Positions 2,961 through 9,608 of a stretch of 64,000 bases of DNA are shown here, piece by piece (positions within the stretch are counted from its first letter, which is position 1; each line of letters begins with the position of its first letter). This stretch comes from Telopea speciosissima (Eukaryota > Streptophyta > Magnoliopsida > Proteales > Proteaceae): NCBI RefSeq assembly GCF_018873765.1, contig NC_057919.1:67698984-67762983 (forward strand), in the 5' to 3' direction. The notes beneath the pieces were generated by a model that made no database searches, was not told where the DNA came from, and saw only the letters and a list, made by a program, of their open reading frames with translations. The translations under genes and the position numbers were made by a program.

Positions 2961-3566
2961 GTAAATACGAATGTTCGATTGACCCGTTTGGTGAAGTCTA
3001 AAATGACTTTGTTTCTCAGGTCCCATTTCATCACCTAGCTGTTCACAATCACAACTTTCAAAGTTTAAAGAGGATAACGTGGATTCTCTTGAAAATGTTC
3101 GATTAATAATAATAGGGTTCATCAATTAGGTGAATAAACAATAGATAAGATGATTTAATGAATTAAATGTTTCAGATTAGATTATAACAATTTAACGGTG
3201 CGAATTGATGGAGCGCTGCTCCCGCTCGCACTTTTAAGTTATTCATTTATTTACTTTGAAATTAGTGACCGTAAGAATCACGTAGGAGTCCAATAATTGA
3301 GGCAAGAAGATATTTTTGTACGAGCAAGTCCACAAGATTTAAACGTCATCTGACTTGCCACATGGCAAAATTAGGTTCTCATAAAAGAAAATTTGGATAT
3401 GTCAACAAGTCGTAGCTAGTTATTGGTCCTCTCTCTCAAGTCTTCACTTTTATCATCTTTGGCTCTTTTCCATCGTCGTAATCTCTTCCTATCCTCTCCA
3501 AGAATTTCAGTCAGATCTTCTTTGTCATTTGCTCTGTTTTATCTGTTCCCACTTTTCCATCTTCTC

Positions 3567-4385
3567 ATGGATATCGTTGGGCCATTTGTAACTGTTATTG
3601 ACACTTATCTGATTTCTCCCATTTCTCGAAGGATAAAGTACTTAAGAAGCTCCCAAGATAATGTAAATGACTTGCAAACTGTAGTTCAAGATCTGAAGGC
3701 AAAGAGGAACGATGAGCAAAGCAAACTAAAAGCAGAAGAAAACGATGGAGGAGTGGAGACTGAGGTAGCCAACAATTGGTTCAAGGCCATCCATGAAATC
3801 GAAATTGAAGCCGATGTCATAGAAAAGAAGTATAATCAATCAGGGACGTGTGCAGGTGGTTGGTGTGTGAACTGCTGGTCACGCTACAAATTGAGCAAGA
3901 GGTCTGCAACCCTCAAGCTAGTTGCTGATCATAGGCTAAACGAACAATTTGATCGGACAAGGTCGCCTTCTCCAAAGCCTGTGATAGAGATGTCAACCGA
4001 GCCAATAATCGCAAAACAGCCATCAACTCGACGCATACTTCAGCAGATGCTTGATTGCATAGGTGATCCTGATCCACGTTTTGGTATCATTGGAGCATAT
4101 GGTATGGGTGGAGTGGGTAAAACAACTCTCGCCAAAGAAGTAAACAATCACTTTGAAAATGATTCTTGTTTTGAGACAGTGATAATGGTCACAGTGTGTG
4201 CAACTCCAAACATACGAAGTATCCAAATCAATATCGGTAAGCGCCTCGGATTCGATAAATCAAATGATAAAGATAGTGAGGCTGATGCACGAGAGAAGTT
4301 GTTGAATGCCTTAAGAAAGAAGAAATTTCTTCTAATTTTGGATGACGTATGGCGCAAATTAAACCTCGAGGTTGTTGGAATCTGA
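3567..4385 (+). pseudogene. CC-NBS-LRR resistance gene, 5' part (CC and first half of NB-ARC)
   Basis: This is the N-terminal part of an intracellular immune receptor of the RPS5/RPS2-like CNL group. The first ATG in a good position is 3567, giving MDIVGPFVTVIDTYL. The open frame reaches further upstream only through a non-ATG codon, so 3567 is preferred. A coiled-coil region (residues about 25-75) is followed by a Trp/Cys-rich stretch with WCVNCWSRYKLSKR, typical of the RPS5 group. Next come the P-loop GMGGVGKTT, the RNBS-A region and kinase-2 FLLILDDVW. The frame stops at 4383-4385 because the first bases of an inserted LTR are TGA. The remainder of the gene resumes at 7344 in the matching frame. 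As it stands it could encode only a 272-residue CC plus partial NB protein, without RNBS-B, GLPL, MHD or LRR. Family identity is very likely; loss of function is inferred. Confidence 0.9.
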
Positions 4386-4693
4386 TACATCTCTGTATCA
4401 GAGAATTAGAAAGTAGACGAAGGAGAGAGAGGACGAAGGAGAAGAAGGAAAGAGATAGAAGAAGAAGAAGAAGAAGACGAAGAAGAGACAGAGAATTGGG
4501 TGGAGATTGAGAATTCACTATTCATGCCCTCTTACATGGGGTACTCGCCCCTATTTAACCATCTACCCCAACTTGCTTATCCATCTAGCATATTGACCCA
4601 TCTACCCCCACAAACTAACCAAATACCATAGGTTCTAACTATTTTCTGTTATACTAGATACAAGGTTTGCCACATCAGCCTATGATCGTATCA
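4383..4693 (-). repeat. LTR (3' LTR in element orientation)
   Basis: 311 bp, starting TGATACATC and ending GTATCA. It matches the other LTR throughout by eye, except for about 60 extra bases of purine-rich GAA/GAAG sequence near 4428-4492. The extra bases look like microsatellite expansion here or contraction in the other copy. The first three bases, TGA, act as the stop codon of the interrupted resistance gene. Confidence 0.95.
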
Positions 4694-4795
4694 TTGCCAA
4701 CCCCTTCGGAGAACCTTGTCCTCAAGGTTCAGTTGCATACAATGCCGCAAGTATAGCTTCCCACGATTGAACACCAAAAGTATTCTAATCGGTAG

Positions 4796-7057
4796 CTAAG
4801 TGTTTACACCTTCACAGGAGAGATCATTGTCCTTGTCCACGGAGATCTTCGTTTCTGCGTCAATAGTGAAACCGAAATGCTGGAAGGGGATTTCAGAACA
4901 CGGTGTTTCCTGTGTAAATTTATAAAGCATTTGACCTACCTCAATCACTCCACAGCAAGTGTACCTTTCAATCATTTGCACTTTCATGAAATTCCTTTTC
5001 CCTGCCTTCTTTGCCCATCGACCAAAACCACCATAGACATTTGACAGAAGCACATAATCTCCATTATAATTAGGATCAAGCATAGAGATCTGCTCCTTTA
5101 CTCGCTTCATCAATTCAAGGTTACCATGACAAGCACAAGCCCCAAGCAGAGTCCTCCAAACAACAGCATTGAGCTCAATTGCGTCCTTGTCAAACCCATT
5201 AACGGCCAAACCAAAAATCAAATAAGTCCAAGAGACAACATTCCTTCTCTCCATCTCAAAAATTACTCTATGCGCCTCTTTAATGCTCCCACATTTTGCA
5301 TAGAGGTCTACAAGGGCATTCCCATTTAAAGCAAGAATCACAGAGTTCCATGTCATGAGGGTCCCTTCAGGCATTAACCCAAACAACTTGTGTGCGCGCT
5401 CAGAAAACCCACAGGCAGCATACATGTGAACTAAAGTGTTTTGAACAAAGACCAATGCCTCACATCCATTTCTTATGGCAGTGCACTGTATCTTCTCACC
5501 CTCTATGGTGGTAAGTAGCTTTGTGCAGGCCTTGAGAATAAAAGGGTAGGTGCTGGTGTCAGGTGTAACGGAGGAAATCTGCAAAAATGGCCGGTACAAT
5601 TGAATGGCTGGTGCAGGGTTTTCACTCTCAGCATACTCCAAAATGGCCCAGTAACTCTCAAGATTCCCAATGATATCTTTAGCTCGAAACGAAGGGCTTC
5701 TGCTACCTTCCTTGACATCCATCGGCATGAGCCCAGTAAATCCAAGGATTCCCTGCTCAAGGTCATCAATGTGAGATTTCCATGGCGGCTTCGTCGTTGG
5801 CCGCACGTCGCTGCTCGACTCATTTAGGGAGTTTTCTTTAAGAGAGAAGAATAAAAATGGGAAATGAAGAAAAACAAATGGAAAATATGGGAGCGATGGA
5901 TGTGGATGAGAAAAATGGAGAAAACGGGTTAGAGATGTAAAACTAAGAAGGTCGGTGATCTGATGTAGGAAGAAGATAGAGTGAAAGTGGCTGTCGGGTT
6001 TGTAAGGTGGGTTTATGGAGAATAGAAATTGAGAAAGAAGAAATAGGAAGAAACAGAAAATGGAATCCTTGGTGTCCATATAGGCCGGACCTTCGCTGGT
6101 CCAACAGCTGAGACGCCGGCAGCTGGATATGTGCAGAGGTGGTGGAGGCTCCGGTGGCGGCCGAATAATCACATCCTCTATTTCTTGTTTCTTCATTTCC
6201 CTCCAAAGCAGAACAGGGGAGGGAGTGAGATGAATGCATTGGATGTGCTCTGCCATCATCGTGAAACGAAGAGCTAGCACTGCGCCGGTGTTCTCCAGAT
6301 CGACTTTGGGCATTCGGAAAGATACGACGGCTGGAATGAGCTCCGTTCCGGTTGGATTTTGACCGACGAAGGAAGGGAGCTGTGATGCAACGATTACTGT
6401 AGCGATCGGTTCTGGCGTTGGTTGTGTCGCCGGCTGCGTCTGGTCGATGCAATCGGTATGAAGGTGGTCATCAATCACAACGCTGGAATCCGGATCTGAT
6501 GCTACAAGAGCTGAAACCAGTGAGGTTTGGTGCAGGGCAGTAGGAGAATGATGGAAACTAGTTGTGAGAGCTTCAGTGAAGGTGGACCAGGTGGTGAACG
6601 GTGTGGAACGATGAACCTGTCGGAACCATTGGCGAGCTGGTCCATCCATGTGAACGGAAGATACAAAGAGACGCAGATCGTCGGAAGTACGATGAAAATC
6701 AAAAAACCTTTCGGCTTTGAATATCCAACCAACTGGATCGGGGCCGGCGAAGCGAGGAAACTCGAGAAGCACGGTGCGGGCCTGAATTGGCGGAGCAATG
6801 GTAAGATCACGGGCGGTGGATGATCCTGGAGTGGGTAGAATGCCAGAACGCCGATCCGGCGACGCTGGAGGTAGGCGTAAGACCTGGTCTAACTGGCCGG
6901 TGATAGCAGCGAGTTGCGCGGAGATATCAGAAATCGTAGCCTGCTGGCCAACGATTGTCGCACGCAATTCCTGGAGAATGGCACCGTGAGCGGTAGATCG
7001 CTCCTGCAGAGCTTTGACAGACTCGTCAAGTTGGCGCAAACGGGTACCCTCTGCCAT
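4796..7057 (-). CDS. Gag-PPR fusion reading frame of the retrotransposon
   Basis: One uninterrupted frame of 753 codons from the ATG at 7057 (MAEGTRLRQLDES...). Residues about 1-90 are a coiled-coil-like start followed by a Pro/Ser linker. Residues about 95-170 form a retrotransposon gag domain with EFPRFAGPDPVGWIFKAE, MDGPARQWF and TTWSTFTEAL. A middle stretch (about 275-440) is Pro-rich, then strongly hydrophobic and Phe/Leu-rich, with no recognised domain. It could be former untranslated sequence that happens to stay open. Residues about 468-725 are PPR motifs of the PLS class: FVQNTLVHMYAACG, NALVDLYAKCGSIKEA, RNVVSWTYLIFGLAVNGF and VVWRTLLGACACHGNLEL, followed by an E-domain-like end (GDYVLLSNVYGGFGRW, then a degraded CCGVIEVGQMLYKF). 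Several joins between motifs are too short, so repeats have been lost. Native PPR proteins of this class act in organelle RNA editing. Whether this fusion is translated is unknown; conserved frame length is the only hint. Confidence 0.8.
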   Translation of the reverse strand: MAEGTRLRQLDESVKALQERSTAHGAILQELRATIVGQQATISDISAQLAAITGQLDQVLRLPPASPDRRSGILPTPGSSTARDLTIAPPIQARTVLLEFPRFAGPDPVGWIFKAERFFDFHRTSDDLRLFVSSVHMDGPARQWFRQVHRSTPFTTWSTFTEALTTSFHHSPTALHQTSLVSALVASDPDSSVVIDDHLHTDCIDQTQPATQPTPEPIATVIVASQLPSFVGQNPTGTELIPAVVSFRMPKVDLENTGAVLALRFTMMAEHIQCIHLTPSPVLLWREMKKQEIEDVIIRPPPEPPPPLHISSCRRLSCWTSEGPAYMDTKDSIFCFFLFLLSQFLFSINPPYKPDSHFHSIFFLHQITDLLSFTSLTRFLHFSHPHPSLPYFPFVFLHFPFLFFSLKENSLNESSSDVRPTTKPPWKSHIDDLEQGILGFTGLMPMDVKEGSRSPSFRAKDIIGNLESYWAILEYAESENPAPAIQLYRPFLQISSVTPDTSTYPFILKACTKLLTTIEGEKIQCTAIRNGCEALVFVQNTLVHMYAACGFSERAHKLFGLMPEGTLMTWNSVILALNGNALVDLYAKCGSIKEAHRVIFEMERRNVVSWTYLIFGLAVNGFDKDAIELNAVVWRTLLGACACHGNLELMKRVKEQISMLDPNYNGDYVLLSNVYGGFGRWAKKAGKRNFMKVQMIERYTCCGVIEVGQMLYKFTQETPCSEIPFQHFGFTIDAETKISVDKDNDLSCEGVNT

Positions 7058-7087
7058 GCTGGAAGAGCCGAGAGCAGGTCGGATCAA

Positions 7088-7338
7088 TGATACATCTCTG
7101 TATCAGAGAATTAGAAAGTAGACGAAGGAGAGACAGAGAATTGGGTGGAGATTGAGAATTCACTATTCATGCCCTCTTACATGGGGTACTCGCCCCTATT
7201 TAACCATCTACCCCAACTTGCTTATCCATCTAGCATATTGACCCATCTACCCCCACAAACTAACCAAATACCATAGGTTCTAACTATTTTCTGTTATACT
7301 AGATACAAGGTTTGCCACATCAGCCTATGATCGTATCA
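7088..7338 (-). repeat. LTR (5' LTR in element orientation)
   Basis: 251 bp, the partner of 4383-4693. Apart from the 60-bp purine-rich length difference I see no substitutions between the two copies, which points to a very recent insertion. In element orientation the gag ATG lies only about 30 bases beyond this LTR. The intervening bases are not a standard initiator-tRNA-Met primer-binding site, so the primer is unclear. Confidence 0.95.
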
Positions 7339-7343
7339 GAATC

Positions 7344-9608
7344 CCAGACCCTTTAAACAACAGAGGTAGCAAGATTCTTGTGACGAGTCGAAATCAAGAT
7401 ACTTGCACTGATATGGGTGCTAGTAAAACCATAAAAGTGAGGCCATTATCAGAAGCCGAGTCGTGGGAGCTCTTTGTTAAAGTAGCTGGTGAACATGTTA
7501 CTGCCACTGACATAAAGAGCTTTGCTGAAAAAATTGTTGGAAGGTGTGATGGTCTTCCCCTTGCAATTGTAACTGTTGCTCGTGCAATGGCAAATCGACA
7601 TGAAGTCGGGTCATGGAAGAACGCCTCAAGGGAAATGGAGCTCTCAGCCACAGAGATCCGAGGTATGAAGGAAGAAGTATTTATTCCTTTAAAATTCAGT
7701 TTTGATAAATTGGAGAATGATATGCTTAGGAGTCTATTCCTTTATTGTGCTTGCTTCCCCGAAGACTATAACATAAATATAAGATATGAAATATTAGATT
7801 ATTGCGTTGGTGAGGGATTAGTAGATAGATTAGGAAGTTTAAATGCTGCTAGGGATAAAGGTGTGGATCTGATTGAGAGCTTGAAAATTGCTTGCATGTT
7901 GGAAGATGGGGAGTATGAAGACACTGTAAAGATGCATGATATGATGAGAGAGCTTGCAATTTGGGTTACTTCTTCAGAGTACTCTAGTAGTGGTATCCCC
8001 AAATTCTTGATAAGGTCTGGTAAATCAGTTAAAGAGGCACCACAGATTCATGAGTGGGTAGATGCAACAAGGATTTCACTATGTGATACCCAAATAGAAG
8101 AGTTGCCGGAGTGGGGAGAGATGTGCCCAAAACTAAACAGTTTTCTATTCTGGGCCAATAGTTACCCAACCAAGGAGGAGAAGATTCGCACTGTTATTCT
8201 CCCAACAAATTTTTTGCAACACATGGATCATCTTAGCGTACTTGATCTTTCTAAAACAATGGGATTGGAATATCTCCCAGATTCCTTGTCATGTTTGGTG
8301 AATCTTCGGGTGCTTAGGTTACAGGGGTGTTCAAGTTTAAAAGCAATGCCTGCACTAGGAATGCTCCGACAGCTCCAACTTTTAGATTTGTCTAATTGTG
8401 AAATGTTAGACCAGCAAATATTTGGAGTTGAATTTGTGGAAGGTGTAAGTAATTTAAGATACTTGAATGTGGAATGGACCAAAGTTTCTTTTCCAGTGGG
8501 GGTAATTTCTCGTTTGCACAAAGTAGAGGAGTTGAGTTTGTTTAGAGCGGATAAAATAAAATGGAGGGTAAGTGGTGGTGGTGGTGGTGGAGATGAAAAA
8601 TGGGATGGGAGTAGGTCTGTTGTTGATTGTAACAGACAAAGCAGCAGGGATGAAGATGAGGAGGAAGAGAAGAGAAGTGGGCCTACCAGTGATGACCGCA
8701 TCATTGATGTGAGGGAGTTATCACACTTGACCAATTTAACATCTCTTTCCATTTCCTTCCAAGATATCATTATTTCTGATGATCTTTGGTTCAAGCCTTT
8801 GGCCAAGAAGATGAAGAGACTGCGGTTGTGGTTGTTTCGTTGCACAATCGTAAAACAAGACACTCTACAAGCTCTCAAACAATTCCAAAATTTACGATTC
8901 TTAAGGATTGAGGATTGCCCGGGGGTGACATGTGTACCCACTGGTGTTGAAGTTGTAGGTCCTGTTGTAATAGAGAATTGTGAGGATTTTGAAGTGGTAT
9001 TTGATGGAGCGGCGGAGGAGGAGGAGGAGGAGGTCTACCACCACCACCACCACCACCAAGATTCCTTTAAGAGTTTATTCCTAGGAAGTTTGCCAAAATT
9101 GGAAAGGATATGTAGTGTTAATCTCACACCACTAAATTGCTTTGATCAACTATCGTGGATAACAATTGAGCAATGCAATAGCTTGAAGATGATCTTCACG
9201 AAGGGAATGCCAGGCGTGTTCAACAACTTGGAGGAGATTAGAGTTCTGGATTGTGAGAGAATGGAAGTGATAATTGAAGCAGATCAGGAAGAAGTACTTG
9301 GAGAGGAGTTGGAAGGGAATAGTAGTAATATTAATGGTGGTGGTGGTGGTGGTGGAGTCATGATCTCACCCTTCCCAAGACTGAAGAGGCTAGAGCTAAT
9401 AGACCTACCAGCACTACATGACGTGTGCAACAACCACATCTTGCAGTGTCCCCTTATACAAGATGTGATGGTGAGTAACTGTCCAAGGCTAAAGAAGGAT
9501 CCTCTCCCCATCCGAAATGCAGACGGGTTACTTGTCATCATTGAAAGGAATCAGTGGTGGAAAAAAGGCGATAAGGTGATGGAAGAGGAAATTCAAGCTT
9601 CTCTGTGA
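7344..9608 (+). pseudogene. CC-NBS-LRR resistance gene, 3' part (rest of NB-ARC and LRR)
   Basis: This continues the receptor exactly after the GAATC duplication, in the frame that the 5' part left. Visible motifs in order are RNBS-B (GSKILVTSR), RNBS-C (SWELFVKVAGE), GLPL (CDGLPLAIVTVARAM), RNBS-D (LFLYCACFPEDYNI) and MHD (VKMHDMMRELAIWV). About 500 residues of leucine-rich repeat follow (for example HLSVLDLSKTMGLEYLPDSL and LRVLRLQGCSSLKAMP). Three low-complexity inserts interrupt the LRR: poly-Gly near 8574-8590, Glu and His runs at 9010-9057, and poly-Gly near 9336-9357. The stop is TGA at 9606-9608. The part has no start of its own and would need read-through or splicing across the retrotransposon to be made. 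It is well preserved, with no other stops or frameshifts, in keeping with a recent disruption. Confidence 0.92.

Follow-up and report, generated by a model that had tools for sequence, protein, structure and literature searches.

The window analyzed here is a stretch of 64,000 nucleotides (nt) from Telopea speciosissima (NC_057919.1, positions 67,698,984 to 67,762,983; contig C4 of the assembly). At positions 4383-7338 it carries an insertion, a long terminal repeat (LTR) element whose coding strand is the minus strand, flanked by a 5-nt target site duplication, GAATC, that was read directly from the sequence at 4378-4382 and 7339-7343. Direct-repeat comparison gave a 5' LTR of 251 nt, bounded by TG and CA (7088-7338, minus strand), and a 3' LTR of 311 nt (4383-4693, minus strand). 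An LTR element with a 5-bp duplication, as given in a preliminary description of this DNA, was thus recovered. The LTRs had also been called clean, which holds for substitutions (0 in 251 aligned sites) but not for length, since a single 60-nt purine-rich indel separates the two repeats. The putative primer-binding site (PBS), placed by its position at 7077-7087 (minus strand), reads TTGATCCGACC (TTGATCC) in the window copy (L001) and in a second copy, L002. Among the nine copies compared, six (L003, L009, L011, L015, L017 and L026) have TTGGTCCGACC (TTGGTCC) at this position, and L016 is different again. Before the 3' LTR, at 4694-4760 (minus strand), we read by eye a polypurine-like tract and a stretch that is presumably a pol tail.

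One open reading frame (ORF), at 4796-7087 on the minus strand, takes up 96% of the interior of L001. It has 763 codons when counted from a TTG and, as described before, 753 from the ATG at 7057, and it joins a gag region, a middle region (M), pentatricopeptide repeat (PPR) pieces from one host gene (P1), an E-domain piece from another (P2) and a tail, in this order. The longest ORF in 300 dinucleotide shuffles of the same interior had at most 232 codons. The truncated gag (6554-7057, minus strand; residues 11-178 of the predicted fusion protein, P0001) matched the Retrotrans_gag profile at 3.9e-4 with 21.0 bits, just under the Pfam cut-off of 24.1 because of the truncation. Its assignment rests on 65% identity over 168 amino acids to the Telopea gag-protease protein P0122. 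Over the part matched, the gag was also 50% identical to the Telopea protein P0123, and the start MAEGTRLR is common to it and to both P0122 and P0123. A search that scored the 8,000 candidates sharing most words returned three gag homologues, two from T. speciosissima and one from Macadamia. Gag of the P0122/P0123 type presumably belongs to the Reina lineage, judged by gag similarity, as the element itself has no reverse transcriptase (RT). The M region (5845-6519, minus strand; q820-1494) is a family-specific stretch for which neither a protein search over 1,551 candidates, at E values up to 10, nor a Pfam search of the middle region gave a match. The PPR motifs and the E-domain-like end, claimed earlier as PLS class, were borne out by Pfam (PPR, 1.7e-11; E_motif, 6.3e-8; both above the cut-off), so the PPR assignment withstood the profile search that might have overturned it. 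E+ and DYW had no Pfam match in P0001; both were matched in P0084, the protein of the first donor gene. The motif series of the fusion is interrupted by two internal deletions relative to P1. Pol had been reported as missing, and the Pfam search of the fusion protein likewise gave no pol domain. Judged by this content, the element appears to be a gag-bearing terminal-repeat element without pol, of the kind called TR-GAG, with a gag that is truncated and scores under the Pfam cut-off.

The PPR part of the fusion was found to be a mosaic of two host genes. Two pieces come from P1, one at 5336-5636 (minus strand; parent coding sequence [CDS] 378-675, 88% DNA identity) and one at 5171-5324 (minus strand; CDS 870-1023, 94.8%). 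They are followed by the P1-to-P2 join at 5136-5175 (minus strand; CDS 1256-1295) and by the E-domain piece from P2 at 4916-5158 (minus strand; 85% identity to C10:19758017-19758259). The switch from P1 to P2 is in register, inside TGGAGGACT, which both genes have in common. P1 is located in L013, on C2 near 77.308 Mb, and its CDS translates exactly into P0084, a protein that carries the source annotation of At4g21065 PPR protein and was taken from a search with 120 of 4,014 matches listed. P2 is located in L022. A single PPR parent was rejected, as the last piece matches P2 and the identity of P0084 to the first two pieces is only 80% and 88%. The proposal of a captured PPR gene fragment therefore stands as to the capture, and the search for the parent gene was successful; however, there were two parents rather than one, the pieces have internal deletions, and they are shared with other element families. 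With host gene pieces of known donors lying between its LTRs, the element is in this respect comparable to Bs1 of maize. A PPR segment inserted separately into the element, raised beforehand as a possible objection, was rejected as well: the PPR part is not enclosed by a pair of repeats, and the same junctions occur in three copies.

To look at copies, the whole 823-Mb assembly (1,287 contigs) was searched with the element, and 40 of the 304 candidates were scored. This gave at least 80 matches, and copy counts are accordingly lower bounds. Two further full-length copies of the same type (class I), L002 and L003, are 97% and 96% identical to the window copy. The order gag-M-PPR is common to all three, whereas the target duplication differs, reading GATTC, CAACC and GTCGT in coding orientation. 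The LTRs of the three copies have 0 substitutions in 251 sites, 2 in 302 and 1 in 302. Their flanks differ, so the check for a shared flank, as left by segmental duplication, came out negative. As the three copies have the same order but each a target duplication of its own, the gag-PPR fusion is itself mobile; the genome-wide search for its junctions, proposed with the preliminary description, was thus answered positively. L001 is the sole class I copy that is open throughout. L002 has stop codons at residues 68 and 719, and an insertion of 19 nt at the PPR join shifts the frame of L003. Over the ORF, dN/dS values relative to L001 were 0.75 (4 synonymous and 10 nonsynonymous changes) and 0.53 (9 and 16); values of 0.5 to 0.75, from 14 and 25 changes, are compatible with weak constraint and with neutrality alike. 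The same LTR was also found at two other places, once as a solo LTR with the target duplication GTAAC (L030) and once as a lone LTR with none shown (L029).

The P1 sequence links class I to other families. P1 CDS 378-1295 is present as one block, at 90 to 94% identity, in L009, L010, L011, L012 and L014. Class I and class II (L015 and L016) have the same P1 endpoints with two inner segments missing, and the endpoints were identical in all 10 element copies examined. When P1 was compared with these 10 copies, 12 sites (10 by a stricter count) differed from P1 in every copy; these differences are unpolarized, and some may be changes in P1 itself. In the all-copy alignment, 15 further sites differed in classes I and II only and 10 in class III only. 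A single capture is indicated by the endpoints and the join that these copies have in common, which are a stronger sign of it than the all-copy differences; separate captures in class I and class III are disfavored by the same two features. With 15 of 15 candidates scored, the P2 end was found in three class I, two class II and two class V copies (L043 and L044) as well as in the donor. Class III retains a short P2-like remnant ahead of its own junction to the tail. Because of this remnant, and because the switch lies in the shared TGGAGGACT, the P1-P2 join is most simply read as predating the separation of the families.

Class III is an older gag-P1 family of four copies (L009 to L012) with other LTRs. 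The spacer of these copies is 96% identical among them, and the gag DNA of L001 is 95% identical to that of L009, L010 and L011 and 91% identical to that of L012. L014 is without gag, and no LTR pair was found for L014, L020 or L021 in the stretches examined. A long poly-G tract, possibly an assembly artifact, lies beside the element in L014 (486-1855, coding orientation). Class IV (L017 to L019) has M and a 5' region in common with class II, the 5' region being 95 to 97% identical to that of L016 and 90 to 92% identical to that of L015. It also carries captured SR-protein kinase sequence (PDB match, 2.7e-13), a piece that was found at seven places at 94 to 100% identity, of which L017 to L019 were examined as elements. 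At a donor-like place for this piece (C4:8046201-8046450, 90%), the match was contiguous over 250 nt, and an intron test made there saw no intron loss. A further PPR stretch of class IV (Pfam PPR_2, 2.1e-15) matches P1 CDS 1039-1263 in part and P2 nowhere. Another element, in L026 (2556-5505, coding orientation), is bounded by LTRs of 266 nt each, identical in sequence, and its 606-codon ORF contains M together with a PPR-like piece of weaker score (PPR_3, 3.5e-4, under the cut-off). As a query, M with this piece gave at least 62 matches (40 of 74 candidates scored). A candidate donor-like place for the PPR-like piece was noted at C2:4479486-4479847 (82%). Class V has two P2 stretches with other sequence between them; L043 showed a pair of repeats, and none was listed for L044. 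In L043 and L044, the sequence separating the P2 stretches is long and open, perhaps another captured gene. Class III, and the additional captured pieces in relatives that have M, are suggestive of repeated rounds of recombination, probably among RNAs packaged together.

The insertion of L001 lies within a nucleotide-binding leucine-rich repeat (NLR) gene on the plus strand. The 5' part, at 3423-4382, matches positions 17 to 119 of the NB-ARC profile; the 3' part, at 7344-9608, matches positions 133 to 247 and has leucine-rich repeats (LRRs). When the flanks were rejoined with one copy of the target duplication, they gave 1,074 NLR codons with no internal stop, whereas with the element present the frame stops at once. 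The break lies between the kinase-2 and RNBS-B motifs. A very recent insertion has, by this reconstruction, split an otherwise open gene resembling the coiled-coil (CC)-NB-LRR type.

Taking these results together, the element is probably a nonautonomous, TR-GAG-like, gag-bearing LTR element built by serial template switching among copackaged RNAs. In such a course, 918 nt of P1 would have entered an element, most simply once, and a conserved PPR motif would then have been the site of an in-register join between P1 and the E-domain end of P2, a piece present in a class V element as well. Daughter families would have shed pieces, class III most of the P2 end and classes I and II two P1 segments. 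For class I, the gag may then have been contributed by an element of class III type and the M-PPR-tail by one of class II type; at least three transpositions of class I in trans, driven by a pol-encoding relative, would have followed, one of them into the NLR gene. Host mRNA would be copied into cDNA by template switching in the particle, with more switching between element RNAs to follow, and the pol-encoding relative would have to supply the enzymes. Copying of host mRNA by template switching in particles has been described for LTR elements in passages of two sources (PMC5408686, PMC13317346). We infer the RNA-level switching and the trans-mobilization, and the order of events from the shared junctions. 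Several points weigh against this course. Since 40 of the 304 candidates were scored, intermediates may be missing. The 16.5 kb around each of L029 and L030 held no second LTR and no match to P0123, a protein with protease, RT and RNase H domains, and a search of the examined loci with its RT and RNase H part gave no match, so that a pol partner was not found. An unrooted tree pairs P1 with L014 (support, 0.78), and with L014 a second, separate capture is conceivable, which makes the single capture less certain there. Over the parts compared, the ORFs of P1 and P2 have no interruption, so no lost intron attests to an RNA step, and mosaics of this kind could also arise by recombination between integrated copies at the DNA level. 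A partial assembly artifact behind the copies and breaks seems very unlikely. It would account for 1-nt deletions at the middle base of CWG, which made up 14 of 23 in L012 and 6 of 13 in L015 over a background of 3 to 3.5%; in our own interpretation these are likely a long-read base-calling artifact at methylated CHG, and the breaks in L012 and L015 are therefore not to be trusted. However, L016 had no clear CWG excess (2 of 14, p 0.07), L010 had 0 of 3 at CWG, L003 had no 1-nt deletion at all, and the flanks and target duplications of L001 to L003 differ.

Two accounts of the fused frame were weighed. Slightly favored is that it is a by-product: captured pieces stayed in frame by chance and decayed after insertion, with neither selection nor a useful protein. 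The two stops of L002, the 19-nt frameshift of L003, three stops in the P1 block of L014 and the replacement of PPR residues on the stems agree with this, whereas the in-frame M indels and the long ORFs of divergent relatives do not. Those ORFs, in the sense direction, run to 611 codons in L017, 606 in L026, 571 in L018, 538 in L009 and 428 in L025, against a shuffle maximum of 311 across 16 elements (300 shuffles each). Outside class II, all 10 distinct M indels are multiples of three by a hand count in which a composite of 18 (1+3+13+1) and an indel split as 1+2 were each taken as one. Gag and P1 are also in one frame across two spacers without a mutual BLAST match, M in class I and 764 nt in L009 and L011, and the P1 stem changes comprised 15 synonymous, 25 nonsynonymous and 0 stop changes, compared with a neutral expectation of about 25%, 72% and 3.4% (a single apparent stop on the class I stem came from a frame-broken background copy). 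We therefore also considered, as a possible but somewhat doubtful account, that selection keeps the frame: an element with one long sense ORF would be copied better, either because its RNA is stable and evades nonsense-mediated decay or because the gag-fusion protein is of use, and captures that preserve the frame would persist. The absence of M stops was dropped as evidence for it. Over four pairs, with L017 standing for class IV, 1 stop was observed versus 4.2 expected, only mildly fewer and not decisive; L018 and L019 have one M stop each, and using either for class IV adds one. Also against frame selection, L025, which is outside the indel count, has in M a deletion of 1 nt close to an insertion of 4 nt; the dN/dS of M (0.42 to 1.50) overlaps that of control frames (0.29 to 1.70); the class I values and the two broken class I copies are as given above; the longest ORF covers less than 50% of the interior in 7 of the 16 elements; and captured coding pieces are open from the start. 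It is unlikely that the family must keep a near full-length sense ORF made of gag or another N-terminal module, then M, then host pieces. Part of the same unlikely reading is that PPR sequence was recaptured repeatedly because an RNA-binding tail helps the element RNA or particle. The captures behind it are P1, P2, the class IV stretch matching neither in full and the PPR_3-like piece of L026, and the apparent PPR excess is biased because the set was gathered with a PPR-containing query. That the host has recruited the chimeric protein as a new organelle RNA-binding protein is highly improbable. An AlphaFold model of the 284-amino-acid PPR part, built on an alignment of 23 sequences, has 14 helices, is helical over most of residues 1 to 225 and reaches block pLDDT values of 54 to 90 over residues 1 to 210, which would favor host use; however, confidence is low from about residue 221, the mean pLDDT is 68.8 and the pTM is 0.39, two of the three full-length copies are broken, and L001 lies in NLR coding sequence. 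The PPR part could fold as a short solenoid, which says nothing about use, and RNA-binding repeats on a gag particle or an organelle role are speculation.

The system offers a traceable case of exon shuffling by retrotransposons, as a single assembly contains both donors, the shared junctions, the related families and a very young copy. With it one can test whether gene pieces are merely dragged along or the fused frame is selected, and whether gag-host protein fusions are made. Gene capture by LTR elements, PPR capture included, is already known, and the exact gag-PPR pair is a new variant. The statement that such a fusion is not a described type holds for this pair but not more widely, given Bs1 and the PPR captures of rice and sorghum. 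In the titles, abstract starts and passages of the open-license PMC papers searched, no gag-PPR fusion was met, and PPR, pentatricopeptide and gag are all absent from the main text of a 2026 review of gene capture in plants. In rice and sorghum, PPR (PF01535) is among the top ten LTR-captured domains of both, though underrepresented, and the relevant passages describe these captures without a gag fusion or a PPR-PPR mosaic (PMC3726574). TR-GAG elements have terminal repeats, a gag domain and no pol, according to passages of PMC6022998; unlike them, the Telopea element has a truncated gag to which pieces of host genes are joined. Its gag resembles that of the Ty3-Gypsy gag-pol proteins P0122 and P0123 of Telopea (65% and 50%), P0123 differing by its protease, RT and RNase H. 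Bs1 is likewise an LTR element with a chimeric gene made of pieces of three host genes, reported in the passages seen as transcribed and translated (PMC13317346). Its host genes are an ATPase, a xylan endohydrolase and a glucanase, compared with PPR genes in Telopea, and unlike those of Bs1, the Telopea pieces are shared by several families with different LTRs. Veju and BARE-2 are described in passages of the same source as new element types that arose by switching between copackaged RNAs (PMC13317346); in both, as far as those passages go, the partner of an element is another element or unknown sequence, whereas the Telopea families join host genes too.

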